Shown one piece after another: positions 21,758 to 55,246 of a stretch of 64,000 nt of DNA. Source of the stretch: Mesostigma viride. Lineage: Eukaryota > Streptophyta > Mesostigmatophyceae > Mesostigmatales > Mesostigmataceae. How positions within the stretch are numbered: position 1 is the first letter of the stretch; every line of letters begins with the position of its first letter. Position numbers and translations under genes: made by a program. Location: contig RPFO01000041.1 in assembly GCA_009746045.1 (NCBI GenBank), forward strand, positions 7,852,613 to 7,916,612. Reading direction: 5' to 3'. The notes under the pieces were generated by a model that saw only the letters and a program-made list of their open reading frames with translations, was not told the DNA's origin and searched no databases.

Positions 21758-21759
21758 CC

Positions 21760-21831
<72 letters not shown>

Positions 21832-25630: not shown

Positions 25631-26443
25631 CCAACCCTTTCTTCTTTTGGAGCTGGGCCAGTTTGAAACAAGCCCAACCTTGCTTGTGCCCACTCAGCCA
25701 CAGACCGCTTGGTCCCTTGGGGTTGATCAGACCTGATAGGGCCCAGGGTCCTGCCTCCTTTTGGGTAACAACATATACGCCCTTGGACCAGGCTAGGTGT
25801 ACTGGCCAGTGAATCATCTGAGGTCACCCCAGGTTATCCCCTGACCCCTTGGTCAGCTCCCAACCTTTCCTTGGGAACTTGTGTTAGATTAAAGTCAAGG
25901 CACGTTACCTAGTCCAATGGCTGGGATTAAAGGATGCCAAGAACGTATTATTGTGAGTTCCTGATCTTTCACAGTTATCACAGGCGCCCGTTCTTATGGC
26001 GCCCGCCTTGGCCAGCCTTCCCCTTTTATGCTCAAAGAGACTCAGGTAGCACCTATACAAATACTGCCTTATTGGGGAGCCCATGTCTTCACTGGGTGTT
26101 AAGCCCAGGAATCACTCATGCCAGGCTGTGGCTCTGCTGGGGAATTGAACCCCACCCCAACCTCCAGGTTTATAGGTGACCTGGAACTTTACACAAGAGA
26201 AACATGACAATCATGAGAACAACATGAGAATGACATGACATGATTATGTTTTATTCAAGCATTATATAACCCAGAATGTGGTTCCCTGGCAACCATGTTC
26301 CACATGGTCACACCACCAGGTTCTTTATTAGCAACAGGTTGGAAACAAGCACTAGAAAACATATATACAGCAACCTGTAAGAACCAACATTCGGGTTGCC
26401 CTTGCATGGCCTAACTGTTTGAGGCCAAAGGCGTCGACTTAAG
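25631..26443 (-). other. Element D 3' UTR (distal part) with primer-complementary module
   Basis: Non-coding. In minus-strand order it holds a tRNA T-arm-like GGGGTTCAATTCCCC (26139-26153), a GGCGCC-based hairpin (25983-26007), CAATAATACG (25944-25953), which is complementary to the bases after the D 5' LTR, and finally the polypurine tract AAAAGAAGAAAGGGTTGG next to the LTR. TTAAG at 26439-26443 is the target duplication of element C. Confidence 0.75.
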
Positions 26444-27097
26444 ATTTGCGCAGCAACTCGTCAGCAGAGCTTGTGAGCTCCTGGTCCTTGCCGGCTGGAA
26501 TGACCCTAGGCTGCTGGCTAGCAACCTTTATCCTCACACCAGGCCTACGACCCTCGATAGGCTCGCCACTCGTCGTGACGACCAAGGTTCGTGTGTGAAG
26601 ACGCTCGTTGCCTCGTTGAGCCTCGAGCTATATGCAACCTCGTTCCATCCTTGTTCCTCGGTCATGAGCAACGCTGGGCAACGCTACATTGCCAGAGCCT
26701 CGTATCGCTGCCCTGCATCCTTGTTGCAGGCAGCATACAGGAATCTCTGGCTATCCTGTGTCTAGGACAGCACAGGACCTGCCACAGTCCTGCAAGGACT
26801 TACATCCTTGCAGACCTGCTGGCTGGTTACTGGCTTCTACTAGCCACAGTACCGTTGAGCCCTCAGTACACTGTGTCCCAGTCACGTGAGAGTACAGGCT
26901 AAGCCTGTGCAGGCACGGCCTGCCACGTGTCCTGTCCACTATGCCCTGAGTGTGCCCCGCCCTCGCCCACCGGTCGGCAGTACTTCGGGACTTGATAACT
27001 TTCTAGTCCCTTGTCTGTTCTAGGCGGTTGACACGGCGTTGGAAAGGTCTCCTCAACCTGCATCCATCTAGCACATTGGTGCCCCAATATGCTAACT
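26444..27097 (-). repeat. Element C 3' LTR
   Basis: 654 bp, close match to 34182-34834 (653 bp) with a few differences such as TTGGTGCCCC against TTGGTTACCC. The right end is AACT at 27094-27097. Confidence 0.93.
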
Positions 27098-28034
27098 CCA
27101 ACCCTTTCTTGTTTTGGAGCTTGGACCAGCCTGAGAACCTATCAGCCACTGTCCCCACAAGCCTTCAGACATCTGATCCCTCCCAGAGACCAGACCTGCC
27201 TTTTCTTTTGGAACCTGAGGTGCCTCCAAATATTAGCTAGGCCTGCTCATTGGTTCAAAGGTTGCCCTCTGACCCACATGACATCCCAACCCTTTCTTTG
27301 GGAACCTGGTGTAGATTAAAGTTAGGTCTTCACTTAGTCAGAGGAGTTTGGATAGAGGAGTCCATGAACGTACTATTGTGAGTTCCTGGTCATCCAGTTA
27401 TCACAGGCGCCCGTTCATATGGCGCCCGCCACGGAGCCTCCTTTATCTTTTAAATCCTTCCAAAGACTGAGAGAGCCCTGACAAATGTTAGCCAACACAT
27501 GGGGAGCCCATGTCCTCACTGAGGGATAAACTCAGGATTCATACATGCCAGGCTGAGGTCAGCTGGGGAATCGAACCCCACCCCATCTCCTCCAGGTTTG
27601 GATCAGCTCCTGGAACTGAGCATCACAAACAACAAGACATGACAATAACAAGATTATGTTTTATTATAAAGGAGTATAACCCATAGTGAGGCCCCTGGCA
27701 ACCACGTCCAACATGGTCACACAACCAGGGATTTTATTAGCATGCAACAGGTTGGTTACAGAGAATATATACAAATGTACAGCAACCTGTTAGAGCCAAC
27801 ACTTGGGCTGCCCTTGCAGGGTCCATTCCATGAAGACCCAAGGCCCATTACAAAGTCCTTAAGACTCTTCTGCAGCTCCATGACAGAGCCAGGCGAAATT
27901 CTCAGCCAGGGGAGTGACTCCACCCTGACCCCTGTCCAGCAGAGTGTGTCTGAACTCTGAAGGACCTGCTGTCAGCCACCACGTGGCTGCCCAGCCCACT
28001 GGGATGCCTCCCACCTAGAGCAAGGCTGTTTGGT
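27098..28034 (-). other. Element C 3' UTR with primer-complementary module
   Basis: Non-coding. Minus-strand order: T-arm-like GGGGTTCGATTCCCC (27566-27580), GGCGCC hairpin (27406-27430), CAATAGTACG (27369-27378) complementary to 34172-34181, and the polypurine tract AAAACAAGAAAGGGTTGG before the LTR. The loop of the GGCGCC hairpin differs from D and E while its stem is kept. Confidence 0.75.
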
Positions 28035-31000
28035 CTACTCTGGCCCTCCCCCCTTGGAGGCCATGAGCCCACGAAGCAAAGGGTATTGCAGCTCAGCCTT
28101 CTCCTCCAGCTTGGTGAGAGCATCTGCAGGGTTGTCCACGCCAGCCACATGTTCAATGTTAGCTAAGCAAGACATTTCCTTGAGCAACAAATAATCAAGG
28201 TCCCTGCTCCTGGCCAGCTGCCTGTGCACAAACTGCACCATGCCCATGCTGTCAGTTCTTACCAGTGTGTGCATCTGCAACCGACAGGAAGCCACTTGAC
28301 ATAGCTGGTAAAATAGCTCCCTCAAGTAAAGAGCAGTATGAAGCCCTTCACAGATTGCCCTGCACTCAGCAATGTCACTGCTGGGAGTTACCCTGTTTGC
28401 AACCGACTGTACCAGCAGACCAGAGAGGACTGTTCCTGCACCAGGGATATTAATGCTGCTGCACGGCCCCTGACCTCTGTGACCTTCCTACTATCCATAG
28501 AACTGTCCACATAGAGCATCATGTCAAAAGGCCTGTACAAATCCAAAGGACCCAGCATGAGAGGGGGAGACATGCGAACAGCCTCTACCACTCTCTCAGC
28601 ACCCACCTCAACCAGTTGGGAATCGGTCAACCGACTCAGTACCAACAGGTCAGGAGCACAAATGCTGGCCAGCCATGCCAACATACCTCGTATTGTTGCA
28701 CATCTGGCCTGGGTGATGGGCTCCTGCAAGGCATCTATGATCTGCTGAGGATAATCCTTACCACCCTCCAGCTGGATGGACCATGTACCCTGCTGATGGA
28801 CCAAGGTCGCCTGCATTCCACAAAACACCATGGGCTCATTCTCAACCATGTACTGGATCTTACCCAGTTCAAACCGTTTCTGGATCCTGGCCAGAGTCAA
28901 CTCTTGCCAAGTGGGATGGCCCAGGAGATGCAGATCATCACCATGCAGGGAGGCAAACGCTGGCAGCCCCTCATAGCTACCCTGAAACAGACAAGGATCA
29001 ACTGGAGAGACTGAGAGACCACAGACAGACCTGAGGTACTTCTCCAAGCTCTTCCTCCAGATGATGGGACTCGATCTAAGGCCTTCCACGCCTTTGAGAA
29101 TCCTCAAATACCTCGTCTTCAGCTCTGCCCTCCACACTGCAGGCACCTTAACAAAGAAAGGGGGTATTGTGCGCCAAGTATCCTGTGCTTCCTGCTGATC
29201 ACCCTTAAGAAAAGCCCTCTTGAAATCTACCAACACAGAGCTATAGGGTATCCCCTTCTGCAGAAAAGACAATAAATGCACAACAAAATCCTCCATGTAT
29301 CATGCAGCATCCCTGGTGTGTAAAGCTCCTCATCTGCTAACTGTCCAGTGCCATGGTACTCAGTCACAACTGGTCTAACATGTGGCACCTGCACGCCATC
29401 TACCTCCTTGAGCTTGAGGACAAACATCAACCTGAGCAGCTGGTGATCCTCAGGGAGGACATCCACAGGCTCTGCACAGTTGGCAACTATCCACTCATGC
29501 CCAGAAGCAACAAAGCCAAGAGTCCATGCCTTAGCCATCTTGGGGCTTTGCATCATCTCCACTAGCTTGCGCCAAGGTACAGGACTCGTTCCTGGGATCT
29601 GGTACCTCTGCACACCCAACTCACGTGGGTCAAACGTAGTAGGGAGGATCAGCAGGTCCCCAGCAATGGGCTCCTTTGTATCAGGACCCTCTGCCTCTAG
29701 ACCCCTCACAGCCCTTACAGCCACACTAAGACCCTGGGAGTAGCGATATCTCTGCAAGGGAAGGCGGCCCTGCCCTTCTAATGCTAGCTCCTCAGAGGAT
29801 ATCCTCACCCCTGGTAAGCACAAGAAGTTCTGACCTAGAATGGCAGGCCCCTGATACCCTTCAACCACACTGAACGTGGTGGGCACCCCCAGGATAGGCA
29901 CACTCACTTCTCCCAAGATCTTCATGGACACATTCCCAGAGAAATCAGACACAGCTAGGCAGCTAGGGGATGACCACTGCAAGCCTGCAGCATCCTCTAC
30001 CCTTAGAATGGACACCTGTGAGTTGGTATCCACTTCTAGTGCTGGTGCCCCACATGACCCCCATCCCGTGAGCTTAGATACCTTGGGATCACGCTTGCTG
30101 TTCTGCAGAGCTCGAATGATGTCCGCCATAAGCAGCCCCCTGGACTGTGGTGCAGCCCTGGCCACCTCTGGCCTTGTGACAGACGTCTCAGCAGACTCCT
30201 GCTCACCCTCATCCATCCAGGACAGACCATAATCCAAGCATGGTGGGTTAGCATCTGCTGCCTGGCTCTCATCCTGCTCATCTCCCTCCAAGGGAGGATC
30301 AGGGCCGTCTTCAGGCCAGATTGCAGTTGGCCTTCTCTCCTTGACGTGAGCCCAGGATAGCCTGTACACGTGCTTGGGATTACTCTCCAAAGCCACCAGA
30401 CAAGAATGGTTAGCTTCCTCAACATGGGTTACCTGCCCATCTTGCCACTTGCCACGCTTGCCTGGTAATGACGGTTCCTTCCACATCCTGACCCTCAGTC
30501 CCACCTGGGGCCTCAGCATTTTCCAACCCTTGTCCTTACGCCTCAATCTGGAAAACACCCTGTCTGCCTTCTTCAGGCAGGCTGCCACCACGTCCTGTGA
30601 TAGCATACCAAACTGCAATGCCAGGGGAGAGACTGCCACACCATCATAGTAATAGGTTACCCTGTGGTTAAGCTGCTCCTCAATCCCCTTACACCAAGCT
30701 GCTTTCTCTAGAGCTGATGCCACAACAGGCACACTCTAGCTGCTAGCACCACTGTTTTTACTTCACGTATAGATCTCTCTACAGCTCCCTGCTGCCCATG
30801 GCATTCCCTAGGGACCACTACCAACTTACAAGGAAGCTGGTCAGCCAGCTTGATCAAGCAGTCAAACTGCAAGTCAGCTTGCACCTTGGTGTACACCCCA
30901 AAGCCTGGCAACAAAGACTGGAGACCCATCAACAGCTGATGCTCCTGCATTCCAGGAAGAATGGTCAGCAACCTATATCTGCTAAACCTATCCACCCCCA

Positions 31001-31624
31001 CCAACAGATACATGCCCCTGATGTGTTGGATGTCCACCTGGATATCCCCCCGCTCTCTAGCAGGTTCTCTGGCATGGGACTGTGGGAGGCGAACAGCATT
31101 CTCCTGACAGACACAATTCTGAGCAGCTGCACTGCAGGCCTCTAGCAAAGGCTCCTTGCCAATCTTCCAAGCAAACATCTCTGCCTGCTTAGAGTGACCA
31201 AAGATATGGTGTAGAGTGTTTCCAGCCTGAGCATAGCTCAACCCCCTGTCAGCCTGGCTGCACAGAGAGGAACGTGACAAAGACTGTGTGCTTGGGATAG
31301 CACGACCCACCTGCTGTTCTCTTGCTCCAGGGACCTCCTCCAAGGTAGCTCGGCTCCCAGAGCCAGCCCCGGTTCCCACAGAAGCTGCAGGTCCTTCCAG
31401 TCTGGCGGCTTGACTCCCAGAGTCAACCCCAAAACTGGAGACCCTGCACCTGCCACAGGCACAGGGAATTCCACTGCTGCAGCAGCGTTATTGCAATCAT
31501 TGAGTGGAAGCACCTCATCATTCCCAACCCCTTGCTGCTGCACAAGAGGGACACCCCCATTACTATGTACAACTGTTCGTCCCACTAGGGGTGATTGACT
31601 ATTTACAGGGGACAACATCTCAAG
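28035..31624 (-). pseudogene. pol: Element C pol (IN-PR-RT-RH), several frame breaks
   Basis: Follows the gag UGA in the same frame (31238-31618), then runs through frames 30708-31379, 29227-30732, 28388-29296 and 28035-28325. Integrase: LHHIFGH, CVC, GDIQVDIQ, VQADLQFD and HGQQGAVERSIREVK. Protease: VDTNSQVSIL and AILGQNFL. RT: DFKRAFLKGD, GVEGLRSSP, LHGDDLHLLG. RNase H: YVDSSMDSRK, RTDSMGMV, ADALTK. Sequence and order match element D closely. The breaks imply it cannot make a full pol unless they are consensus errors. Confidence 0.88.
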
Positions 31625-32973
31625 TCATGGCTTACCCACCTGGCCAGAGCCTGCTCCAGCAGACTTGGCCTGGTCTGGGCAGTCACGTCGCCAATGACCC
31701 GTCCTGCCACATCCAAAGCATTTGTCATCCTTCCCAGCAGCAGCCTTCTTCAGGCCACCCTGGTTCTGGCTGCTCTGACTGGCCTGGGTGCCCTGGCCCT
31801 GGCTCTTGCCTTGCCCTTGGCCACCCTTGTTCTGCTGACCACCCTGGTGACCACCAGCCTGCTGCTGACCCTTGCCTTTGGATCCCTGCTGCTGGCCCTT
31901 GCCACCCTGGTTACCATTCTGCCTGCGCCTGTTAGCCCTCTGACGCCTACTAGGTCTGGTTTCTCCCTGAGCACCCTGCCCAGGGGCGTCACCATGGACC
32001 TGATGAGCGGAGGCTGAAGGGGCACCAGTCACCTGGATTGCCTTGCAAGCAGCATTGTCAGATGGACGGATATTGAAAATAACCTTTTGCAAGGCTGGCC
32101 ACGTCCCATCTGTCTGATCAGCAAACATCCTAGCTGCATTTCTCCCATCCACACTCAGCCCCATGCGATCCAGGAAGTAATCTGCCACTGCTCTATCAGT
32201 CAGATTGAAGCCATGCTTGGCCCCCTTCTCCCTGATGCGTGTGAGCCGCTGCAGCTCCTCAGCTATTGTGCCCTTGATCTCAAAGGTATCATAGCTGAGC
32301 TTATAGTGATTAGTGAGGTTGAGTACCTTATCAGAAAACTCCTGACGTAGGCCCTCTAGGAACTGAGACCAAGTCAGCTTGTCCTTGACAGCCTGCCTAG
32401 CCTTGTCCCTCACCCGCTCACTTGAATCCCTATTAGTCGTGGATGTGTGGAATACCTGCACAAGGTTGACAGTGGGATCTACAGAGCATGAAACTAGCTC
32501 CATATCCTCCAACCACTTGTCTAGCTCTTCCTGTCCCACAGGAGGCTTGAGAGGCTTCTGGCCATTCATCACAGCCACAGCACTCATATGAGGTCTAGTC
32601 CCAGGCAAAGCACGAGGGTCACTGCCAATGACAGCAGCTCCTACTGGTGCTAATGGCGCAGGAACATAGCTGCAGGAACACCAGACGCAGGCACACATGG
32701 TCTCTTACCAGGTGCTTGACGTTCAGCATCATTCTGGCCCTCCCCCGTCAGCACCACGCCGTCGGTTGGCCACCCTGCACGCTCCTCCCCTTGTGCCACC
32801 TCTTTCCTCTTCCGGTTGGACGCCCTCCTGCCATTGACGCCCTCTGCCGTTGGGATTGCCTGTCCCTCTGGCACGACGTTGGCGGGGCCTCCCGTGTCTG
32901 CCCTTGCCTCACCCCCGCCATCCCCCGCTCCCGCCCCGCTCCCGCTGCCGCCCCCGCGCGTGTTACGAAGCAT
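31625..32973 (-). pseudogene. gag: Element C gag, one frame break, ends in UGA in frame with pol
   Basis: ATG at 32971-32973. An N-terminal Gly-rich part (to about 32650) changes frame to the capsid part starting near PHMSAVAVMNGQKPL. The capsid region has WLEDMELVSCSVDPTVNLV and WSQFLEGLRQEFSD; a Gln/Gly/Lys-rich linker precedes the zinc knuckle CFGCGRTGHWRRDC (C-x2-C-x4-H-x4-C). The stop is UGA at 31625-31627 followed by CUU, and pol continues in the same frame, as in D and E. Confidence 0.85.
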
Positions 32974-34158: not shown

Positions 34159-34171
34159 GAAAGCGTGGAAG

Positions 34172-34181
34172 CAATAGTACG
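34172..34181 (-). other. Element C primer-binding-site position
   Basis: On the minus strand CGTACTATTG follows the 5' LTR without a gap. It is the exact complement of CAATAGTACG in the C 3' UTR (27369-27378). It does not start with TGG, so a normal tRNA CCA end cannot be the primer. Confidence 0.7.
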
Positions 34182-34834
34182 ATTTGCGCAGCAACTCGTC
34201 AGCAGAGCTTGTGAGCTCCTGGTCCTTGCCGGCTGGAATGACCCTAGGCTGCTGGCTAGCAACCTTTATCCTCACACCAGGCCTACGACCCTCGATAGGC
34301 TCGCCACTCGTCGTGACGACCAAGGTTCGTGTGTGAAGACGCTCGTTGCCTCGTTGAGCCTCGAGCTATATGCAACCTCGTTCCATCCTTGTTCCTCGGT
34401 CATGAGCAACGCTGGGCAACGCTACATTGCCAGAGCCTCGTATCGCTGCCTGCATCCTCGTTGCAGGCAGCATACAGGAATCTCTGGCTATCCTGTGTCT
34501 AGGACAGCACAGGACCTGCCACAGTCCTGCAAGGACTTACATCCTTGCAGACCTGCTGGCTGGTTACTGGCTTCTACTAGCCACAGTACCGTTGAGCCCT
34601 CAGTACACTGTGTCCCAGTCACGTGAGAGTACAGGCTAAGCCTGTGCAGGCACGGCCTGCCACGTGTCCTGTCCACTATGCCCTGAGTGTGCCCCGCCCT
34701 CGCCCACCGGTCGGCAGTACTTCGGGACTTGATAACTTTCTAGTCCCTTGTCTGTTCTAGGCGGTTGACACGGCGTTGGAAAGGTCTCCTCAACCTGCAT
34801 CCATCTAGCACATTGGTTACCCAATATGCTAACT
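34182..34834 (-). repeat. Element C 5' LTR
   Basis: 653 bp, partner of 26444-27097. Its internal edge is ATTTGCGC at 34182, directly next to CAATAGTACG (34172-34181). The outer edge AACT is followed by the target duplication TTAAG. Confidence 0.93.
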
Positions 34835-41207: not shown

Positions 41208-41222
41208 GAAGAAGTAAGGAGA

Positions 41223-41232
41223 CAATAATACG
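41223..41232 (-). other. Element D primer-binding-site position
   Basis: Minus strand CGTATTATTG directly after the 5' LTR, the exact complement of CAATAATACG in the D 3' UTR (25944-25953). Compared with C and E it has one C-to-T change, matched by a G-to-A change in the 3' UTR copy. Confidence 0.75.
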
Positions 41233-41876
41233 AGTTAGAAAGAGCTCCCAACGTATGTGAGCTCTTGATCTTTCACAGCGCGTCTTAGCCAATGTTGCAA
41301 GGCAGCAACCTTAAATCTGTTCACCAGGCCACGACCACAATGGGCACTTCCACGACCAAGGTGGCACCCACGGTTCGTGCTTTCCGAGATAGCTGGTCAT
41401 CCCCCATGACCAAGCTATATCCTTTGCGTTGTTCCTCGTTCCCATCGGCGTGACGAGGCACGTGCAGGCGTGCAAGCAAATCCTCAACGTCCACTGGCAT
41501 CAGTGCAGAGCCAGGACGAACTGGATTTGCCTAGACTCTGCAACCTAGGAAGTACAGGACCTGTCACAAGCCTGCAAGGCCTAGTATCCTTGCAGACCTG
41601 TGCCAGCTCCAGTATTCCACCAGTCACAGGCTGCTGCTCCTCTGATCTACGTGGACCACAGTCACGTGATAATCAGGCTAAGCCTGTGCAGGCACGGCCT
41701 GCCACGTGTCCTGTCCACTATACCAGAGGACTGCACCCTAGTCGGCCACGGATGGCTAGGACTTCGGGACTTGATATCTTTCTCGTCCCTTGTCTGTTTC
41801 AGGCGGTCAGCACGGCGTTGGAAAGGTCTTTCCAAACTGCATCCACTTAGCATATTGGTTGCCCAAAATGCTAACT
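41233..41876 (-). repeat. Element D 5' LTR
   Basis: 644 bp, partner of 24983-25630. AGTT at 41233, AACT at 41873-41876, then target duplication GATGG. Confidence 0.95.
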
Positions 41877-42124
41877 GATGGGTCAGCCAGTCCGTGAAAC
41901 TCCGCCTTAAGACGGCACCAGGGAATCGAACCCCGCCCACAAACCACAGATCTGGGGAAACCTCAGACTGAGATGAAAACCCCAGATAGACATCTCTCCA
42001 TCAGAGACAATGTCAGACATTCCCACACCAGAGACATGTCTCACCCCTCAAGGTGTGCTCAGGATTATGTACAATCAAGCTCCCAGCCTGATATCCAGAG
42101 ACTTAAGCACCCAGCTCTCAGCTT
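41877..42124 (-). other. Element F 3' UTR, right part
   Basis: Non-coding continuation of the F 3' UTR, interrupted by D. It contains the T-arm-like GGGGTTCGATTCCC (complement at 41921-41934), at the place where C, D and E carry theirs. Confidence 0.7.
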
Positions 42125-42887: not shown

Positions 42888-43534
42888 AGTTAGACGAACC
42901 AGCCCAGAGCGTGTGAGCTCTTGGTCTTTCACGCAAAGCTTGAGCCAATTGCTGGGGACAGCAACCCTTAGCCCAAACACCAAGCCACACCTTGTTGGTC
43001 GCTTTCACGTTCAAGTGGGCAACCAGAGCGCGTGCTTTCCAGATAGCTTGGCCATCCCCATGACCAAGCTATATGCTTCTTTGTTGCTCCTCGTTCCCAT
43101 CGGTGTGACGAGGCATATTGCAGGCTTGCTAGCAAATCCTCAACGTCCACTGGCATCCTTGCAGAGCCAGGACGAACTGGATTTACCTAGCCACCTGCAA
43201 CCTAGGAAGTACAGGACCTGTCACAAGCCTGCAAGACCTAGTATCCTTGCAGCCTTGTGCCAGTTCCAGTACCCCACCAGTCGCAGGCTGCTGTCCCTCC
43301 TGGTCTACGTGGACTACAGTCACGTGATAGTCAGGCTAAGCCTGTGCAGGCACGGCCTGCCACGTGTCCTGTCCACTACCCCAGAAGGTTGCACCCTCGC
43401 CGACCGCGGACGGCTAGGACTTCGGGACCTCGTATCTTTCTTGTCCCTTGTCTGTTTCAGGCGGTCAGCACGGCGTTGGAAAGGTCTTTCCAAACTGCAT
43501 CCACTTAGCATATTGGTTGCCCAAAATGCTAACT
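42888..43534 (-). repeat. Element E 3' LTR
   Basis: 647 bp, partner of 55247-55893 with about six substitutions (for example CTTGTCCCTTG against CTTGTACCTTG). Confidence 0.95.
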
Positions 43535-44472
43535 CCAACCCTTTCTTCTTTTGGAGCTGGACCAGCTTGAAACAACCTAGCCTAGCTTGTGCCCACTCAG
43601 CCACAGATCGCTTGGTCCCTTGAGGTTGATCAGACCTGTCAGGGCCCAGGTTCCTGCCTTCCTTTTGGGAACACAACATATGTGCCCTTGGAACAGCTTG
43701 GGTATGCTGGCCAGTGAATCAGAGGTCACCCCAGGTTATCCCCTGACCCCTTGGTCAGCTCCCAACCTTTCCTTGGGAACTTGGTGTTGGATTAATGTCA
43801 AGGTACATTACCTAGCTCAATGGCTGGGATTACAGGATGCCAAGAACGTACTATTGTGAGTTCCTGGTCTTTCACAGTTATCACAGGCGCCCGTTCTTAT
43901 GGCGCCCGCCTTGGCCAACCTTTCCCTTCTGCTCAAAGAACCCAGGTAGCACCTAGATTAATGCTGTCTCCTTGGGGAGCCCATGTCTTCACTGGGTGTT
44001 AAGCCCAGGAGTCATTCATGCCAGGCTGTGGCTCTGCTGGGGAATTGAACCCCACCCCAACCTCCAGGTTTATAGGTGACCTGGAACTTCTCACAAGACA
44101 AACATGACAACCATGTGAACAACATGAGAATGACATGATTATGTTTTATTCAAGCATTATATAACCCAGAATGTGGCTCCCTGGCAACCATGTCACATGG
44201 TCACACAACCAGGTTCTTTATTAGCAACAGGTTGGAAACAAGCACTAGAAAACATATGTACAGCAACCTGTAAGAACCAGCATTCGGGTTGCCCTTGCAT
44301 GGCCTAACTGTTTGAGGCCAAAGGCGTCGACTTAAGTCCTGGCGACTCTTCTGAACCCCATGGGGAGGGCCAGGCAAGATTCTCAGCTGGTAGGAGTGAC
44401 ATTCCACACCAACTCCTGTCCAGGAGGGTGTACCTAACCCTGAAGGACCGGCTGTCAACCAGTAAGCACCAG
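43535..44472 (-). other. Element E 3' UTR with primer-complementary module
   Basis: Non-coding. Minus-strand order: T-arm-like GGGGTTCAATTCCCC (44039-44053), GGCGCC hairpin (43886-43910), GTGAAAGACCAGGAACTCAC, CAATAGTACG (43847-43856) complementary to the bases after the 5' LTR, and the polypurine tract AAAAGAAGAAAGGGTTGG next to the LTR. Confidence 0.75.
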
Positions 44473-47400
44473 TCACCACTTGGCACTTTGGTCAAACAAC
44501 CCACCGGGGACACCCAAGCTGAAGCAAGGCCTGGTCTCTATGGCCGCCCGTAAGGGGTCCATGAGCCCACGGAGCAGGGGGTACTGCCTCTCCGCCTTCT
44601 CCTCCAGCTTGGTGAGGGCATCTGCAGGGTTGTCCACACCAGGCACATGTTCAATGTGAGCTAGGTAGGACATCTCCTTGAGCAACAAGTAGTCAAGGTC
44701 CCTGCTCCTGGCCAGCTGCCTGTGCACAAATTGCACCATGCCCATGCTATCAGTCCTCACCAGTGTGTGCAGCTGCAACCTACAGGAAGCCACTTGACAT
44801 AGCTGGTAGAAGAGCTCCCTTAAGTAAAGAGCAGTATGCAGCCCTTCACAGATTGCCCTGCACTCAGCAATATCACTGCTGGGTGTAACCCTGTTCTGCA
44901 ACCGACTGTACCAGGTAACAAGTGAGGTGTGATCTTGCTCCAGGGTAACTAATGCTGCTGCCCTGCCCCTGACTTCTGTGACCTTCCTATTGTCCATAGA
45001 ACTGTCCACATAAGGATCATGTCAAGGGGCTTGTACAAATCCACAGGACCCAGTATAAGAGGGGGAGACATCATGACAGCCTGCACCACACTCTCAGCAC
45101 CCACCTCAACCAGCTGGGAATCAGTAAGTCGACTCAAAACCAGCAAGTCAGGGGCACATATACTTGCAAGCCATGCCAGCATGCCCCTGATGGTAGCACA
45201 CCTAGCCTGCGTGATGGGCTCCTGCAATGCATCTACAATCTGCTGTGGGTAGTCCTTACCACCCTCCATCCTGATGAACCACGAGCCCTTGGCTTGGAAC
45301 AACGTAGCCTGCATGCCACAGAAGACCATAGGCTCATTCTCCACCATGTGCTGTATCTTACCCAGCTCAAACCGCTTCTGGATCTTGGCCAAAACAGCCT
45401 CAACCCAGTCTGGTGGACCTATGAGATGCAGGTCATCACCATGCAGTGAGGCAAAGACAGGAAGGCCATTGTGGGACCCTTGGAACAAACAGGGATCCAC
45501 TGGAGACACAGAAAACCCACAAGTATTCTTCAAGAATTTCTCTAGGCTCTTTCTCCAGATAATGGGACTGGACCTGAGACCTTCCAACCCTTTCAGAATT
45601 CTCAGGTACCTGGCCTTTATCTCTGCTCTCCATACAGCAGGTACAGTCACAAAGAAAGGAGGGATATCTCTCCAAGTCTGCCTAGCCTGATCTTGGTCAC
45701 CCTTGAGAAAAGCCCTCTTGAAATCAATCAGCACAGAGCTATAGGGCACACCCTTAACCAGAAAAGACAGAAATATACACAGCAGAATCCTCCACGTGTC
45801 ATGCAGCATCCCTGGAGTATAGAGCTCCTCATCTAACAACTGGCCAGTGCCATGATACTCGGTTACAACTGGTCTGACATGTGGCACCTGGACACCATCT
45901 ACCTCCTTGAGCTTGAGGACAAACATCAATCTGAGCAGCTGGTGAACTTCTGGCAGCTCATCCACAGGTTCTGCACAGTTGGAAACTATCCACTCATGCC
46001 CAGAAGCAACAAAGCCAAGAGTCCATGCCTTAGCCATCTTGGGGCTTTGCATCATCTCGACTAGCTGGCGCCAGGGAATAGGACTGTGAGCAGCTATCTG
46101 GTACCTGTTTACCCCTAACTGCCGTGGATCAAAGGTGGTTGGGATGATTAACAGGTCCTCAGCTATGGGCTCCTGACCTTGAGGACCCTCAGCTGGCTGA
46201 CTCTTAACAGCCTTCACCGCCACTGCAAGACCCTGGGAATAGTGATATCTTTCAAGGGGGAGGCTGCCCCTGCCTTCTAGTGCCAACTCATCAGAGGTCA
46301 AAGTAACCCCTGGCATGCACAAGAAGTTCTGACCCAGAATGGCAGGCCCCTGATAGCCCTCTACCACACAGAACGTGGTGGGCACCCCTAAGATAGGCAC
46401 ACTCACTTCCCCAAGGATCTTCATGGACACCTTTCCTGAGAAATCAGACACAGCAAGGCAACTGGGATGGGACATCTGTAAGCCTACAGCATCCTCTTCC
46501 CTGATGACAGACACCTGTGAGTTGGTATCTACCTCCATTGTAGCTGCCCAGCACGACCCCCACCCCGTGAGCTTGGATACCTTGGGATCATGTTTGCTGC
46601 GCATGAGTGCTCGGATGACGTCCGCCATGAGAGGCCCCCGGGCCTTAGGTGGCTGCCCCGTCCCCTCTGGCCTTGTGACAGTTGCTTCAGCAGCCTCCTC
46701 CTGCTCGTCATCTTCCAGCAGGGACAGACCATCATCCACCACCAGAGGATTGTTAGCTGCTGCTGCCTGGCTCTGGCCTGGCTCCTCAACCCAGCTGGGA
46801 GGGCCTGGCCCGTCTGCAGGCCAGATTGCATGTGGCCTTCTCTCCTTGACATGAGCCCAGGACAACCTGTACACGTGCCTTGGATCCTTTTCCAAAGCCA
46901 CCAGGCAAGATCTGTTAGCTTCTTCCACACGAGTGACAACCCCATCCTGCCACTTCCCCCGCTTGCCTGGAATAGATGGTTCCTTCCACATCCTGACCTT
47001 CAGCCCCACCTGAGGCCTCAGCACATTCCAGTTCTTGTCCTTACGTCTCAGCTGGGCAAACAGCCTGTCTGCCTTTCTAAGACTGGCCTGCACCACATTC
47101 TCAGGTAGTAAGCTATACTGCAGGGCCAGGGGAGAGACAGCCACACCATCAAAGTAATAATTAACCCTGTGGTTGAGCTGCTCTTCTATCCCCTTACACC
47201 AGGCTGCCCTCTCTAAGGCAGATGCCACAAGTGGCACTGAGTCTGCTGCTAGCACCACTGTCTTCACTTCACGTATGGATCTTTCCACAGCCCCTTGCTG
47301 CCCATGACTCTCCCTGGGGACTACTACCAGCTTACAAGGCAGCTGGTCCTGATGCTTGAGCAAACAGTCAAACTGCAAGTCTGCCTGCACACTCTTGCAT

Positions 47401-47681
47401 ACCCCAAAGCCTGGGATCAGGGCCTTCATACCCAACAACAAGTGATGCTCCTGCATACCAGGTAGAACGCCTATCAGTCTATATCTACTGAACCTGTCCA
47501 CCCCCACTAATACATACAATCCCCTAATATGCTGGATATCCATCTGGATGTCGCCACGCTCTCTAGCAGGCACCCCAAAGCCTGGGATCAGGGCCTTCAT
47601 ACCCAACAACAAGTGGTGCTCCTGCATACCACTGAGGTAGAACGTTTATCAGTCTGTATCTGCTGAACCTGTCCACCCCCA
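44473..47681 (-). pseudogene. pol: Element E pol, part 2 (IN end, PR, RT, RNase H)
   Basis: Large frame 44949-47627 plus 44473-45009. Nearly identical to D pol: ADLQFD, GQQGAVERSIREVK, VDTNSQVSVI, AILGQNFL, DFKRAFLKGD and LHGDDLHLIG. A one-base loss near 45010, just before YVDSSMD, splits RNase H into the second frame. At the start the segment from RERGDIQMDIQ to LIPGFGV is found twice in tandem (171 bp, in frame). The stop lies further on than in D because of a 2-bp difference after MDPL. Confidence 0.88.
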
Positions 47682-47901: not shown

Positions 47902-50310
47902 CTAGACCGCATGGGTCGCGACAAAGTCGGCCCGGGTGCGGCGGAATAACACATCAGCCACGGTGCGAGTGAGGGCGAGTGACAGGCGCTGCCGCCAATA
48001 CGAGGACCACGTGCGGGCCGACCACGGGGCGGTCTGACCCTCGAGGTCGAGGCGGTCTTCACGGCGCTGGCAGCACTCGTGGAAAAACTCCGCTGTCTTG
48101 GGGCCCATGGCCCCGAACTCCTCAAGGACAAAGGGGATGACCCGGTGGGGCCCCACATTGCCGTAGGAGGCAAACTTGTCGCGCTCAGCCACAGTGGCAG
48201 CAGCGCCGGCATCCACAGCCGCCCGGAGGATGTGGCGACCGGAAAGCGGCCGAGCCACGGAGACATCGATGAGCAGGTGGCAACCCTGCCCGTCGTAGTC
48301 AAGCACGGTAATGTCGGGGCGGTGGTTGGGTGAGTAGAGGGCGGCCCCATCCGCGTCCTCGCACTTGATGGTGGAGTGGGGAAAGACCGACCGAACCATG
48401 GCACACACCACCCGGAGGAGAGCGGTATGGAGATAGAGGAACCAGTTCTGGTTCTGCTGGCCACCCATGCACGCGATGTAGTGCGTCCCAGTAGTATCCA
48501 GAGCAAGCCCGCAGCTGCCGCAGGACGCACCCGCCGTGATGAGAGGTTGCGGGGCAAAGAGCTGGTGGCGGAGAGCGATGGCGTAAAGGGCCGGAACCAG
48601 CGTGAACAAAGGGCTCATGGGGAGGGCGCGCAGGAATGCGGACCCCACGCTCCCCTCAAGGGAAACGGAGTGAAGCCAAGCCTTCCCCTGATCGTTCAAG
48701 CTCGCGTGCAGACCCATCCAGTCGGCACAGTGTAGTATACCCGCGTAGGTCTTTTGTTGTTTTTCATGAACGCAGGCAGGGAAGACACTAGGACTGACGA
48801 CAGTAGACACGCCGGGCGTGCCCCGGGGCAGGCGACGGTGGACGGCCTGAGCGGGGCGGACGAGGTCGCAAGCCTGCTGGATCCCGAGGTAAGAATCCTG
48901 CACAGCCTGCACAAAGGGGAAGGGGGATGGGGTGACCAAGTCGGGAATGGCGCTGACGGCGCTGGGGACCAACCGGCGGATCTCCGCCCAGGCTTGAGCA
49001 ACAGAGCCAAGGAAGGCGGCGGGGGCGAGGCGGGCGGCGCGGGTGAGCCCACACCCGCCCATGCGGCAGGGGAGGGTGGCCAAGCGCATGGAGTGAGCTG
49101 GCAGGCTAGGGCCGGGGAGGAGCACCTGCAAGGCGGCCTGAATGCGCTCGTCATGGCCTTCCGCGGCAAGCCGCACCAAGTGGGGGGGAGCGCCACGGAG
49201 CCAGTGAACCACCCGCGGGTGGGCGCAAAACCACAGGAGGAGCCCTTTGGTCTGGGGGTCCTTGAGGCGCGCCCAAGTCTCGAGGACATGGGTGCGCTGT
49301 TCCACGGTGGCCCGGAGCTCCTCTTCGACGTAGTCAGGGTCACCCACAGGGACGCCTAGGCACGAGAAACCACGCGCCCGCGCCAATGCCCCCGGGATAG
49401 CCGCGGGGAAGCCAGAGCAGTCCCCCTGGGGCGAAAAGACTGCACACTTGGGGAGGGTGAGCCGAAGGTTGATGGCCGCCATGGCCACTTCAAGGGCAGC
49501 CAGGGCGGCAACCACAGCGTCGGCCGGGCCAAGGGCATGGATATCGTCCATATAGGCGAGGAGCACGACATCCGGGTGCGCAGCGTGGACACCTTGGAGA
49601 GCCTTGTGCAGCGGGGCAGACAGGTAAAAGGGGCCGAGGGGGTCACCTTGCTGGGTTCCCGTGCGGGAAGCGATGTCGGCGAACGTCCCATCCTCCATGA
49701 GGAAGGAGAGTTGAGTGGGGTCGCCGTAGCAGGCTGCTGTCCACGCAAGAAGGTCAGGGAACGCCTCGCCGACGGCCTCAAAGATGCTAGCCTTGGTGAC
49801 AGCATTGAACGCATTGTGGCAATCCACCTTCAGCGCCACATGGGTCGGATGCGTCTCGAGGTAGGCCTGAACTGTGTGCACGATGATGTCGCTGCCCCCT
49901 TTGGTGGCGACGCCAAGCTGGGCCGCGACGGACTCCTCAGTATCACTCCGGTTGGGGCAGAAGTAGGCGCGAAACTCGGGGGCCTTTTGGCGACAAATGA
50001 CCTTACTCACCAGCTTGCGTAGGACCTCGCCGCAAGCAATGGGACGAACACGGCCAGCAGGCGGGGGGACGTCGTCTTTCAGGAGGGCAATGAGGCGTGC
50101 CCCAGCCAGCCAAGGGCGCGCCTCGGGGGCCAGGGACCCCGCGGCCAAGTCGGCGGCAGCCTCAAAGAGTGCGGTCGCCCCGCCATGGCCCGCCATCACG
50201 GAGAGGTGCTCGTAGCGCCAGCCTGAGGGGCCGGTGGAGGAGGCGTTCGGCAGATCCTTCAGCACAGCCGTGAAGATGTCCAGGTCCAGGACAATAGGCG
50301 GGGGCGGGGG
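47902..50310 (-). CDS. LINE reverse transcriptase and C-terminal endonuclease
   Basis: Copies LINE RNA at a nicked target. RT motifs numbered from 50265: ALKVDCHNAFN (Asp148), RTGTQQGDPLGPF (202-213) and LAYMDDIHALG with YMDD at 238-241. After a long thumb/linker come CGSCG...THYIAC, a CCHC-like knuckle, and RPDITVLD ... LLIDVSVARP, the PD-(D/E)XK core of restriction-like endonucleases. This layout (RT, CCHC, restriction-like nuclease at the C-terminus) is that of early-branching LINEs such as the R2, NeSL and CRE groups, which often insert at chosen sites. The frame begins upstream of 50265 (PPPIVLDLDIFTAVLKD), after a change at C runs near 50300. Confidence 0.9.
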   Translation of the reverse strand, partial: PPPPPIVLDLDIFTAVLKDLPNASSTGPSGWRYEHLSVMAGHGGATALFEAAADLAAGSLAPEARPWLAGARLIALLKDDVPPPAGRVRPIACGEVLRKLVSKVICRQKAPEFRAYFCPNRSDTEESVAAQLGVATKGGSDIIVHTVQAYLETHPTHVALKVDCHNAFNAVTKASIFEAVGEAFPDLLAWTAACYGDPTQLSFLMEDGTFADIASRTGTQQGDPLGPFYLSAPLHKALQGVHAAHPDVVLLAYMDDIHALGPADAVVAALAALEVAMAAINLRLTLPKCAVFSPQGDCSGFPAAIPGALARARGFSCLGVPVGDPDYVEEELRATVEQRTHVLETWARLKDPQTKGLLLWFCAHPRVVHWLRGAPPHLVRLAAEGHDERIQAALQVLLPGPSLPAHSMRLATLPCRMGGCGLTRAARLAPAAFLGSVAQAWAEIRRLVPSAVSAIPDLVTPSPFPFVQAVQDSYLGIQQACDLVRPAQAVHRRLPRGTPGVSTVVSPSVFPACVHEKQQKTYAGILHCADWMGLHASLNDQGKAWLHSVSLEGSVGSAFLRALPMSPLFTLVPALYAIALRHQLFAPQPLITAGASCGSCGLALDTTGTHYIACMGGQQNQNWFLYLHTALLRVVCAMVRSVFPHSTIKCEDADGAALYSPNHRPDITVLDYDGQGCHLLIDVSVARPLSGRHILRAAVDAGAAATVAERDKFASYGNVGPHRVIPFVLEEFGAMGPKTAEFFHECCQRREDRLDLEGQTAPWSARTWSSYWRQRLSLALTRTVADVLFRRTRADFVATHAV

Positions 50311-52075
50311 GTGGCCGGGGCGGGCACCGCAAAGGCCGGTTCGTCGGGGTGAAGGTCGCGCAAAGCCTGCAGGGTCGGGGGAGTGGAGGGAGCCAACGCG
50401 GTCAGTTCAAGCTTTTGCATGGCCCGGCTCAATTCACCTACCTTCACCAACCGCATGACGTCAGCTTCCACCCGGGCAAAGGAGGCGGCCCCCGACACCC
50501 GGGTGGAGGCCGGAGGCTGCAGCGCCCACAGCCCTTCCCAATCCCCGAGGAGGAACCGCCGGCAGCGAGCGATGACCGCACCCTGTACGCCACGCACGCC
50601 CCGCTCCAACGGCGCTAAGAGGAGCCGGGGGGTGACGAGAAACAGCTTGTGGCCGAGTTCGTCGAGAGGGTGACTATGCATCCGGGCCAGGGAAAGCAGG
50701 GCGCAGCGCGTAAACAAGCTCCGGGCGCGGTGAGGGACGTCCGGGAGCGTCATGCAAGGGTTGCGCGCACAGGCGGCAAAAGGGAGCGTGGCCAGGAATG
50801 CCCAGCCTGCCGAGAGGTCCCCCGGATCGCTCGTACCCTGCGATGCCGGTGGAGGGGCAGGGGCCGACCGAGGGGCCGCCCCGGACCGGGAGGCCGGTGC
50901 GGCCGCCGGGCCGCCGGGCAGGCCGTTCTGGGGGGTTTGGCGGCGGCACTGCCGCTCATGCTGGTACCGCCCGTGGATCGAAAAAATCCGCTGGCAATGG
51001 GCTGCCGGGCAGCGGTAGCAGTCCATGGCGCGCATGGCGGCCTCCGTGATGTGGGGGTGGGAAGCCCGAATGTGCACCAGCAACGAATTCCGGTTGGGCA
51101 GGCGCGCGCCACACGGGTCACCAAGGGGACCATCGACTTGGCAATAATGGAAGCCATCTGAGGGGGGCGCCCACCCGGTTGGGCCGCCCCGGGTCGAGAG
51201 GGGGAGGGGTCGGGAAAACCCTCAGCCAGAGGAACTACAGCTGCAGCGGAACCCAGGGCGGGGCCGGCCGCCGGGCGGTCAGCAGGGCTCGTGGCAGCCG
51301 AGGACAAGACCGGCGCGGGGACGGCCCCCACGGCCGGGAGGGGGGCGCTGGAGGAGGCAGCCAAGCCGGCGCGCGACCCACGACCACGCACAGGGGAGGC
51401 AGGTGTCGGGGCAGGCGCGTGGGACTGGCGGCGCACGGACACGGGCGAGGGCCCCAGCGGGAGAACGCCAGGAGGCAAGGGGGAAAGGACCGCGGCCCGG
51501 CAAAGGGGGCAGGTGGCGGAGGTCGCGTGCAAGCTCGTGGCGATGCAAGCTTGATGGAAGACGTGGCCGCAAGCAGGGAGGCGGCAGAGACCGTCACCAG
51601 GGCGAGGCAGGTCCAAGCAGATGGGGCAGGAGGGGCCGCTGGCAGTGACATCCACCAAGTGGGCCGGCCCGTAGTGGGCGGGCGCCGCGTCCCACCCCAG
51701 CTCCCAGCTCGGCAGTCGGGCGATCTCATCGGCGGAGAGAAGACGGCGGCGCGGACCAGCAGGGTGCCAGACATGGGGGATGCCCGCAAGCTCGAGCACA
51801 TCGTGCAAGATGGCGGGCACGGCCGCACCCGCGCTCAGCTCGAGAACACGCCCCCCCCCGCATCGTACAGAACCAGGTCACCGGCGTGCACGGTGACAGG
51901 AGCCCCGAAGTCAACGCGCAGGCGGGCGGCTTGCGCTGGGGTGACCGCCGTAGTCAAGCGCCCGTGGGCCTGCGCAACAAGGCCGGCCGAGCCGGGCCCG
52001 GCAGAGGCAAGAAACGTGTGCAGCTGAGGGCGATCGAGCAAGGCGTGGTCGGTGGCCCCCCCCGCGAGATATGCC
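50259..52075 (-). pseudogene. LINE N-terminal region: RING-H2 finger and C2H2-like zinc fingers (5'-truncated, frameshifted)
   Basis: Three frames joined at G/C runs. The first (51835-52075) is open from the truncated 5' end and shifts at nine C at 51851-51859. The second (from about 51850 to about 51170) holds a RING-H2 finger at 51500-51628: CPIC, then PACGHVFHQAC, then CPLC. The third (about 51160-50259) holds zinc-finger-like DPCGARLPNRNSLLVHIRAS and CYRCPAAHCQRIF ... HERQC, like the DNA-binding fingers ahead of RT in R2-type LINEs. RING fingers usually mark ubiquitin ligases; the role here is unknown. Confidence 0.8.
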
Positions 52076-52085
52076 CCAATATATA

Positions 52086-52679
52086 CAAGCCCCTGATATG
52101 CTGGATATCCATCTGGATGTCGCCACGCTCCCTTGCAGGCTCCCTAGCATGGGACTGGGGTGCATGGTGAACAGCATTCTCCTGGCAACCACAGTTCTCA
52201 GCAGCAGCCTGGCATGCCTCCCACAAAGGCTCCCTACCTAACTTCCAAGCAAACATTGCTGCCTGCCCAGAATGTCCAAACATGTGATGTAACCTATGGC
52301 CAGCCTCAGCATAGTTCAGCACTCTCTCAGTACTGACCTGGCGAGACGTCTGAACCGTGTGTGGGGACACATGATCCACTCCTGAGGTTCCAGGGCTTCC
52401 CTGCAGGCCATCCTGACGCCCCAAGCCAGGCCCTGCACCCTGGACCGCTCCAGGCCCTTCCAGCAAGGTCCCTTGGCCCTCCAGGCCAGCACCTGCTGGA
52501 GACCCACCACCTGCATGAGGCATAGGGAATTCAGCTGCAGCATTGTTATCGCAATCCAGTGGAAGAACAACATCCTTACACCCTTGGTGCTGCACAAGGG
52601 GCACACCCCCGTCCTTATGTACATCCAGCACACCTTCCCCAAGGGGTGATTGACTATTTACAGGGGATGATGTAGCTAG
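52086..52679 (-). pseudogene. pol: Element E pol, part 1 (pol start to integrase), cut by the LINE
   Basis: Begins after the gag UGA (52680-52682) in the same frame: SPVNSQSPLGEG, then LDVHKDGGVPLVQHQ, the zinc-binding LHHMFGH and CGC, and RERGDIQMDIQHIRGLY with the first integrase Asp, ending at the LINE target duplication at 52085. It continues at 47681. One in-frame codon is added compared with D (VHHAPQ against VHPPQ). Confidence 0.88.
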
Positions 52680-54012
52680 TCACTGCTGCCCAGACTGGCC
52701 CCCTGCTCCAGCAGGCTTGGCCTTCCTGTCAGGGCACTCACGACGCCAGTGACCTTCCTTGCCACACACAAAGCATGCTCCACCCTTCTTTCCAGACCCA
52801 GCCCCACCCTTGCCAGGCTTCCCCTGGCCTCCCTGAGACTGCCCACCCTGCTTGCCCTGATTGCCTTGAGCTTGGCTCTTGCCTTGCCCTTGGCCACCCT
52901 TGCCCTGCTGACCACCAGCTTGCTGGCTCCCAACCCCTCCTTGGGAACCTGCACCCTTGCCACCCTGAGCCCCATTCCTCTGGCGCCTGAAGCGCCTACG
53001 CTTGTTGGGCCCGGAGGTGGCATTGCTGCCGTGGGACTGAATGGCTTTGCAGGCAGGGTCTGGCTTCCTGATACTAAGGATTACCAGCTCTAGAGCACGC
53101 AAGGACCCATCTGTCTGGTTCAGAAACATGCGGGCACTGTTCCTCCCATCCACACTCAACCCCATTCGGTCCAGGAAATAGTCTGCCAAGGCTCTATCTG
53201 TGACCAGGAAGCCATACTTGGCCCCCTTGTCTCTGATACGGTTGAGCCTGGCCCACTCCTCTGCAACAGGGCCAATGATCTCGAACGTGTCATACTGGTG
53301 TTTATAGTAGTTTGTGAGGTTTAAAACCTTGTCTGAAAACTCCTCCCTCAGTCCATCCAGGAACTGTGCCCAGGTTAGCTTGTCCTTCACAGCCACCCTA
53401 GTCTTTTCTCGTACACGTTCAGAGGAATCTCGGTTGCATGTTGAGGAATGAAAGACCTGCACTAGATTCACAGTGGGGTCGACAGAGAGCACCACCAGCT
53501 CCATGTCCTCAAGCCATTTATCTAGTGCTTCCTGCGCTAATGGTGGACAGAGAGGCTTTTGGCCATTCATGACGGACACGGCGCTCATGTGAGGCCTCGA
53601 CCCCGGTAACGCCCTAACTGTCTCAGCCACAGGGGGAGTCCCAGCAGCGACACCAGCCACAGCGGGCGTCACAGTTACGACACCACTTGGGCCAGCAGGG
53701 TTGGGGGAGGACATCTACATGACGACGCTTACCATTATCGTCAGAGGACAAGTCCCTCTTACGTTTCTCCAGCGTTGGTTGTCCGCCAGCCACCAGCACA
53801 GCATCTGAAGGCCACTCCGCCCGCGCCCGTTTGGCCTCCTCCATCGCCTCCTCATGTTTGCGCTTGCCTCCCGGCCTCTTGCTCCCGTCACCGTTGCTAG
53901 CCGGGATCGCTTCCCCCGCCATGGGCTCCTTCTCCTTTCGCACCACCTGGCCCGTCTCCACAGGCCTCTCCTCCTCGCCTTTGTCGCCGTCGCCGGCCTT
54001 CCCACGAGGCAT
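52680..54012 (-). pseudogene. gag: Element E gag, one frame break, UGA CUAG at its end
   Basis: ATG at 54010-54012 (MPRGKAG). The charged N-terminus shifts frame near 53700-53715, then PSGVVTV and PHMSAVSVMNGQKPL lead into the capsid region (WLEDMELVVLSVDPTVNLVQ, DYFLDRMGLSVDGRNS) and the knuckle CFVCGKEGHWRREC. A short internal deletion relative to D removes the part around QGQGDVPGYPARDGARP. The stop UGA at 52680-52682 is followed by CUAG and pol continues in the same frame. Confidence 0.88.
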
Positions 54013-54070
54013 TATATTATGTACAAAGCGACACTGCAACACGCAAGGGTATGCAAAAGAAGACCGGACT

Positions 54071-55219
54071 TCAAGCGTCGGGCAGCTCCTCTGCCTCGCG
54101 CTCTGCCTCAGCGGCGGCTTCTCTCTCCCGCTCTTCAGCAGTGACAGCCACCGGCGTCCTCACCCGAGGAATAGCTCGCACCTCCTCCTCAGAATAAGGT
54201 CCAAGAAGGCGACTGACGGGCCTCCCGTCTGTGGTTTGGTCAAACGGTATACACGCCTCTCGTTCGGGCGCCTGCCCCACACCACGTTACGCACCCAGCG
54301 TCCTCCCCCACCTCGTCGCTCGTTGTATGCCCCAAGGCCGTAAGCGCTGTAGTCGTGCAACGGCTCCGGCGGGATGTGATAATCTGCACGTTGCCGCTCG
54401 GAGAACCCTGCTGCAGAACCGTCTCCCTCGTCCAACTGCTGGGACGAGCGTGCAATAACTGTCACCCGACGGGCGGTCGACGAACTCGTCGTGCACTGCC
54501 TGTGGAGACAGGTCCCGGCCTGTGACGATTTCCACCGACGGACCGTATGCACCGGGGGCTCCAACAACACGAGGAGTGTCTAATGTGGACCAGATGCCGG
54601 CAGGACGCGTGGTGATAAGCCACCGATCTGCGTGGCCTCGCGACTCTTGAAGCAAAATGTTAACAAGGTGCTCACAGGTTTGAGCAACTCCCTCTTGCGA
54701 GGGCCAGGGGCTGTCCTGCTCACGCACCTGCGCGTCACGCACGAGGTGTGAAGCGTTCGTCCCTTCACCGAGGGAACTTGTTGCGACCCAATGGTTAAAT
54801 AATCGGGTGGCACCAAGGCTGATGGCGACTAGCTGTCCCAACGCCTCTCGAGCAAGATCCAAACCGTGTAGCGTAACGTGACCACCTTGATAGGCGATCT
54901 CAAGAAGGCTGTAGATAAGCGCTGCGACCTCGTCTCTCAGCGCAATCAAGCGCTCCACCGTCACACGACTCGTCTCCCCCGGAGAAGTCGTGGCCCGCAC
55001 ACGCATCACAACAGGGTCGTTGGCAGACGGCCCTTCCGAGTTGCCGAAAACAGCCACCCAGCCTCCCCGCGCCAAGCCCCTCGCCAAATGCGCAGCTTGT
55101 ACAAACGTGGACGCGGTTTCTGGCTGGCTGTATGGATGCAGGGGTCCTTCTGCCTCCTGCCGCGGCACTGCGGCTCCTTGGCTTGGCGATTGCGCAAGCG
55201 CCGGAATTTCTTCCGACAT
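54071..55219 (-). pseudogene. Element E ORF1 (unknown protein), two frame breaks
   Basis: ATG at 55217-55219. Frames 54287-55219, 54160-54570 and 54071-54280 together match D ORF1: ASTFVQAAHLARGLARGGWV, LDLAREALGQLVAISLGATR, CEHLVNILLQESRGHADRW, SSQQLDEGDG and TDGRPVSRLLGPY. The breaks are near 54490 and 54230. Function unknown. Confidence 0.8.
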
Positions 55220-55236
55220 GAAATGCGCCACGGAAC

Positions 55237-55246
55237 CAATAGTACG
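55237..55246 (-). other. Element E primer-binding-site position
   Basis: Minus strand CGTACTATTG directly after the 5' LTR, the exact complement of CAATAGTACG in the E 3' UTR (43847-43856). Confidence 0.7.

Follow-up and report, generated by a model that had tools for sequence, protein, structure and literature searches.

Plant long terminal repeat (LTR) elements are primed, according to the available text of a survey, by one of three types of primer: a whole transfer RNA (tRNA), a half-tRNA, or a piece of the 5' LTR that is cut out as a self primer (PMC6317226). The elements Tj1 and Tf1 prime with the 5' end of their messenger RNA (mRNA), as described in the accessible part of PMC4600332. 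Here we describe copia-like LTR retrotransposons in a stretch of 64,000 nucleotides of the Mesostigma viride genome (contig RPFO01000041.1, positions 7,852,613 to 7,916,612; this whole stretch is called the window below), in which the bases immediately behind the 5' LTR, the position of the primer-binding site (PBS), are complementary to a sequence in the element's own 3' untranslated region (3' UTR), which we call the anti-PBS. In the elements C, D, E, H and K, this sequence is the joining strand of a predicted three-way junction, and after a predicted cut it would probably serve as the element's own primer for minus-strand synthesis. A 3'-UTR primer is outside the three types that the available survey text lists for plant LTR elements.

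The Tf1/sushi elements (Tf1, Tj1 and the plant Tcn1) are similar to ours in that their own structured RNA contains a complement to the PBS next to the 5' LTR, but as primer they use the 5' end of the mRNA, within the LTR, and not a part of the 3' UTR, as far as the accessible text goes (PMC4600332). Moreover, their reverse transcriptase is of the Ty3/gypsy kind, whereas the reverse transcriptase matches found here are to RVT_2. The Tf1-type complement, which we take to be about 10-11 bases long, is like that found here in length. The TAR lineage of plant Ty1/copia elements (Houba, Osr-1) also combines a copia element with a predicted self primer, but self primers were sought there solely in the 5' LTR, according to the text at hand (PMC6317226). 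When the LTRs of A, C, D and E were compared with the anti-PBS, no copy of it turned up; the best match in the 5' LTR covered 7 of 11 bases for A and 7 of 10 for C, D and E, so that an LTR self primer of the Tf1 or TAR type is not seen in these four elements. Ty1 (through CYC5-CYC3) and Ty3 (through its bipartite PBS) are comparable in that the 5' and 3' ends of the genome meet at the start of reverse transcription, but both prime with tRNA-iMet, and the link of Ty3 runs via the tRNA, as the accessible part of PMC4974528 describes. In Ty1-type cyclisation, the complementarity lies apart from the PBS; the complementary stretch found here is the PBS position itself, with an offset of 0. Finally, the fungal GalEa copia elements likewise possess neither a tRNA-type PBS nor a Tf1-like complement, but have a conserved palindromic hairpin site at the 5' end, and no 3'-UTR partner is described for them in the text available (PMC5445492). 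None of the titles and abstract openings among the literature matches listed named a 3'-UTR primer, and, as subscription literature was mostly outside their scope, this is weak evidence.

The borders of the LTRs were set from LTR pairs and target duplications. The elements C, D and E lie on the minus strand, and element A, of a distinct family, spans positions 6440-14940 of the plus strand. Their LTRs start with AGTTAG and end with CTAACT (D and E), GCAAAT (C) or CCAACT (A), and the 5-bp target duplications are CTTAA (C), CCATC (D), GGAGT (E) and CTCCT (A). A purine run, AAGAAAGGG, stands immediately 5' of AGTTAG in C, D and E as a polypurine tract; two LTRs, a 5-bp target duplication and a polypurine tract at the 3' LTR identify LTR retrotransposons. 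The LTRs and the complementary sites, together with the site of a control element, F, are as follows.

6440..6894, plus strand: 5' LTR of A, AGTTAGATG...CCAACT
6895..6905, plus strand: PBS position of A, TGGACTGAAAA
14356..14366, plus strand: anti-PBS in the 3' UTR of A, TTTTCAGTCCA, 120 bases ahead of the 3' LTR
14486..14940, plus strand: 3' LTR of A, identical to the 5' LTR of A over 455 bp
24983..25630, minus strand: 3' LTR of D
25944..25954, minus strand: anti-PBS in the 3' UTR of D, ACAATAATACG
26444..27097, minus strand: 3' LTR of C
27369..27378, minus strand: anti-PBS in the 3' UTR of C, CAATAGTACG
34172..34181, minus strand: PBS position of C, CGTACTATTG, the first 10 bases past the 5' LTR
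34182..34834, minus strand: 5' LTR of C, AGTTAGC...GCGCAAAT
41222..41232, minus strand: PBS position of D, CGTATTATTGT, 11 bases complementary
41233..41876, minus strand: 5' LTR of D, AGTTAGC...CTAACT
42888..43534, minus strand: 3' LTR of E
43847..43856, minus strand: anti-PBS in the 3' UTR of E, CAATAGTACG
55237..55246, minus strand: PBS position of E, CGTACTATTG
55247..55893, minus strand: 5' LTR of E, AGTTAGC...CTAACT
57206..57217, plus strand: PBS position of the control F, TGGTATCGGAGG, without a partner in its own 3' region

The six places at which the original prediction had located the decamers of C, D and E contained them exactly, and CAATARTACG occurred nowhere else in the window (25944, 27369 and 43847 on the minus strand; 34172, 41223 and 55237 on the plus strand), compared with a mean of 0.06 matches in 100 dinucleotide shuffles. 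LTR pairs and target duplications also confirmed that in C, D and E no gap separates the decamer from the 5' LTR. The compensatory change proposed for D is indeed matched on both sides, but the match of D extends over 11 bases, not 10. The argument that a tRNA CCA end cannot prime where TGG is absent holds for a whole tRNA with CCA, but not for a half-tRNA. Element A has an 11-bp exact complement at the corresponding places, and its sequence is unrelated to that of the C/D/E pair. Each of the four window elements A, C, D and E matched its own anti-PBS over 10 bases (4/4).

To locate the complementarity relative to the LTR, the longest exact complement to the last 1000 bases of each element was determined at 90 offsets round the LTR junction (804 bases were used for D; the slices of C, D and E end at most about 20 bases from the LTR, and that of H, one of two families from elsewhere in the genome, ends at an insertion of family J). 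Offset 0 was the sole best in A, C, D, E, H and K, with 11, 10, 11, 10, 11 and 9 bases, respectively, and the best elsewhere was 8 or 9. In the control F, offset 0 gave 5 bases, and 54 of the 90 offsets were equally good. Markov resampling, which covered three of the six families, yielded such a complement within the last 1000 bases by chance in 18 (A), 0 (C) and 15 (K) of 20000 trials. When PBS and 3'-UTR partners were swapped between families, full matches were seen only inside one PBS type; C and E form one such type, D and H another, and A and K each have their own.

In the assembly of 439,911,974 bases, the 3'-UTR sequence GGGCGCCTGTGATAACTG had 448 + 469 matches with at most 3 mismatches, and the reversed control had 65 + 66. 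Twenty long stretches were taken from 30 loci, picked for variety rather than at random, and most of the sampled copies represent a few young types. Both ends could be read in 11 of the 20, and in ten of these 11 further copies the PBS matched its own anti-PBS over 10 of 10 bases:

D-type copies: L035, L037 and L039
D'-type copies: L042 and L043
E-type copy: L047
C-type copies: L048, L049 and L050
Family H: L032

The covariation of the two decamers, which had been suggested as a check on other genomic copies, was thus seen in these ten, with two PBS types, but was incomplete in the eleventh, L031, which is considered below. The 5' end was unreadable in L033, L034, L036, L038, L040, L041, L044, L045 and L046 (9/20); L046 has the PBS string, without a framing LTR pair. 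The 5' LTR of H in L032 was recognised because it resembles the 3' LTRs found in L033 and L034, since an insertion has cut off its own 3' LTR. Family H carries the base change of the D type and has the LTR type of C; C and H share one LTR type, and D and E another. As this change is found across both LTR types, we infer from LTR likeness, without a tree, that the differing base arose at least twice or was moved by recombination.

Family K turned up in a search of the fetched stretches for other LTR starts of this type, as a whole element within L045 (LTR AGTTAACG...CACAACT, LTRs 99.8% identical, target duplication CCTAA). Its site, CGTATTACA, has an exact 9-bp complement, TGTAATACG, 451 bases before the 3' LTR, and the complementarity starts at the LTR border. 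A second 3' end of K, in L034, has the same anti-PBS. For family J, known from its 5' LTR in L032, the 3'-UTR sequence TTCAAAATCCA was predicted beforehand; the 601 bases fetched were another sequence.

The anti-PBS of C, D and E lies in a predicted RNA module with a common fold, at the following places.

25936..26012, minus strand: predicted three-way-junction RNA module of D
27361..27435, minus strand: predicted three-way-junction RNA module of C
43839..43915, minus strand: predicted three-way-junction RNA module of E

The predicted fold consists of a stem, P1, a hairpin with GGCGCC arms, P2, a second hairpin, P3, six free bases, and a CG that forms the inner end of P1. The anti-PBS runs from the final two bases of P3 through the six free ones to the CG of P1. 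The core of the joining strand (AUAGUA, AUAAUA or GUAAUA), which adjoins the CG that closes P1, is predicted to be unpaired: the unpaired probability of its six bases is at least 0.90 in C, D, E and H, and in K it is 0.67 for the first base and at least 0.93 for the other five. Fold z-scores round the anti-PBS were -3.5 (C), -3.5 (D) and -1.9 (E), and those of longer 3'-UTR stretches (259-262 bases) were weaker (-1.5, -1.6 and -2.2). In an alignment of eight distinct modules, 99.5% of 184 cells pair, with two-sided changes in 11 of 23 pairs; none of 500 shuffles reached this, and slid controls gave 33-45%. Moreover, a model built from C, D and E found K with E = 1.6e-5 in 285,960 bases. The P1 of H is different (GTTGTGA/TCATAAC) and still pairs at 7 of 7 positions, and K has a different P3 (AATAG/CTATT) as well as a different P1. 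When E was compared with C, the module appeared as an island of conservation (86-88% in 50-column windows, elsewhere mostly 32-72%), and two further islands of 82-86% lie outside it. Taken together, the complementarity, its start at the first base past the LTR, its joint change with the PBS and the two-sided changes of the stems can be read from the DNA itself, and the free state of the six core bases is predicted by folding.

Both arms of P2 are the palindrome GGCGCC, invariant in all eight distinct modules, which could also let two RNAs pair. In A, the anti-PBS is predicted to sit at the apex of a long hairpin, with an unpaired probability of at least 0.59 at 7 of its 11 bases. An alternative hairpin, CCAGGAAC/GTTCTTGG, with the anti-PBS in a 12-base loop, was dropped, because H has no partner strand for it (by eye) while the three-way junction persists.

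In the mechanism that we propose, the joining strand of one genomic RNA, or a separate small RNA from the 3' UTR, would anneal to the PBS. The strand would be cut directly behind ...ACG by an endonuclease, possibly the element's own RNase H, which does this in Tf1; the base after the cut would be the bulged U of P1 in C, D and E. Primers ending in ...CAAUAGUACG, ...CAAUAAUACG and ...UGUAAUACG would be expected, according to the family. The new 3' end would then be extended into U5 and R. The 3' end of a primer sets the end of the LTR, since the first nucleotide joined to it forms the final position of U5. In each family the complement begins at precisely this edge, which favours self-priming over closure of the genome. 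During plus-strand synthesis, the primer would be copied and the PBS rewritten from it, by which the two sites would stay matched. A primer cut from a full genome would call for a second RNA copy, because the cut removes R from that molecule.

Several observations weigh against this mechanism. In the old copy L031, with LTRs 96.5% identical, the PBS and anti-PBS agree at only 8 of 10 bases (CGTACTACTG vs CAATAGCACG); the earlier proposal of an own primer or of closure is thus supported in part, with the start of pairing at the LTR edge in each family favouring the primer and L031 departing from it. The module of E reaches a z-score of just -1.9, the pair counts are weak when only C, D and E are used, with 57 of 500 shuffles doing equally well, and the alignment of eight modules was fitted to the structure and so leans towards it. 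In element A, a three-way junction was searched for and not found, its 3' region folds no better than shuffles (z-scores 0.61, -1.06 and 0.76), and its site begins with TGG, so that a tRNA primer is possible there. Finally, the predicted cut in the 3' UTR would destroy the genome as a template for strand transfer.

The pairing could instead close the genomic RNA, or join two genomes, as a step needed for the start of reverse transcription, like CYC5-CYC3 of Ty1, with another RNA acting as the primer. We consider this possible, though not likely. Ty1 needs direct pairing of its 5' and 3' ends, and Ty3 joins them via its primer tRNA, according to the accessible part of PMC4974528; the loop-like free strand would fit a long-range contact of this kind, and the RNA cut required for self-priming is only predicted. 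However, the pairing covers the PBS position itself, from the LTR edge in six of six families, for which closure has no need. The CYC5 of Ty1 lies downstream of the PBS, unlike the stretch described here, as the same text indicates (PMC4974528), and a separate primer would have to displace the 5'-3' pairing.

A host RNA, either a half-tRNA or another small RNA, could also be the primer, and the 3' UTR would then contain the same sequence either to serve packaging or as a result of capture. The survey text at hand describes copia elements from several lineages of plants, Osser among them, that use half-tRNA primers (PMC6317226), and the PBS of A begins with TGG. Bryco is likewise a half-tRNA-primed copia element. 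Nevertheless, this explanation appears improbable: there are several PBS types, each matched by its own 3' UTR, which would imply several host RNAs, each of them captured, and the 3'-UTR sequence sits within a conserved fold with changing stems. Chance likeness, or only the shared descent of near-identical copies, can hardly account for the pairing, for although D and E are close (89%) and the sampled copies are mostly of a few young types, both the PBS and the anti-PBS are of unrelated sequence in A and K, and the resampling counts for A, C and K were those given above.

The self-encoded 3'-UTR primer may be part of a broader scheme, on which we are evenly divided: a fourth kind of LTR-retrotransposon primer, in which a three-way-junction module of the 3' UTR has its joining strand cut to prime, the PBS is rewritten in each cycle, and a sequence like a tRNA T-arm or B-box may drive a separate small RNA transcribed by RNA polymerase III. 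The sequences of this kind are as follows.

26138..26154, minus strand: T-arm-like sequence in the 3' UTR of D
27564..27580, minus strand: tRNA T-arm-like (B-box-like) sequence in the 3' UTR of C
41922..41932, minus strand: the same B-box-like core, within the 3' UTR of G, an older element
44038..44054, minus strand: T-arm-like sequence in the 3' UTR of E

C, D and E share the T-arm-like sequence TGGGGTTCRATTCCCCA in their 3' UTRs. The core of this sequence, GGTTCRANTCC, is present at four places in the window, namely in these three 3' UTRs and in that of G, and also in K. It could be part of a polymerase III promoter for a separate primer RNA, or form a T-loop fold; the former reading presumes what we take to be the B-box consensus. 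A motif like GACCARGARCTCACA was observed about 25-50 bases before the end of the LTR, in U5, and a second time next to the anti-PBS, in C, D, E and H; no counterpart of it near the anti-PBS was found in K or A. A search of the whole window with Rfam gave nothing at gathering score. Of three matches below it at 43800-44200, two were judged to be due to chance (wcaG, 24 vs 42 bits; Mu-gpT-DE, 15.9 vs 49 bits) and the third, to tmRNA (9.3 vs 47 bits), to a T-arm likeness. ARAGORN found 0 tRNAs in the window.

Read by eye, the elements are nested: C lies inside the 3' UTR of D, and D, E and F lie inside G. The 5' end of G is beyond the window, and the 1001 bases at its estimated site were the 3' end of an A-family copy. 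D and E are 89% alike over the stretch of 3' UTR and LTR. The RVT_2 match of A reached 34.4 bits, above the cut-off of 31.6, and those of E (22.4 bits) and D (21.8 bits) were both below it; F is an ordinary copia element with an RVT_2 match of 166 bits. Motifs like those of integrase precede the reverse transcriptase in the translations when read by eye, and a domain search of the pieces of A, C, D and E gave no match to an integrase family. Two relatives of the A reverse transcriptase were found, a Mesostigma protein (40% identical) and a sequence labelled Prorocentrum lima (64% over half of the query); viral contigs, when searched, yielded neither a relative nor a match.

A protease-like stretch (of the DTNAQVSV...ILGQNFL kind) was noticed by eye in the open reading frames 44949-47627 (minus strand) and 8919-12002 (plus strand), seemingly between the integrase-like and reverse transcriptase parts. 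This order of integrase-like, protease-like and reverse transcriptase parts would be unusual for copia. Just upstream of A, the open reading frame 5321-6232 (plus strand) encodes a C-5 cytosine DNA methylase domain (Pfam PF00145, 45 bits). At 15771-20766, two inverted 785-bp copies, 98.6% alike, flank a gypsy-type open reading frame with reverse transcriptase, RNase H and integrase, and a long tract of GTAA-type tetranucleotide repeats lies at 21750-21880, downstream of the 3' LTR of G. The reverse transcriptase-RNase H part of the A family was 99-100% identical at all 90 places scored (90 of 7454 candidates), which suggests a very recent burst of this family.

If the priming proposed here is true, the 3'-UTR primer would stand as a fourth type beside the three that the available text of the plant survey gives (PMC6317226). 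Such a primer would make the element independent of host tRNAs, and would account for a PBS that can change while its match to the 3' UTR is kept. Elements recorded as having no PBS could then be re-examined by comparing the first ten bases past the 5' LTR with their own 3' UTR.

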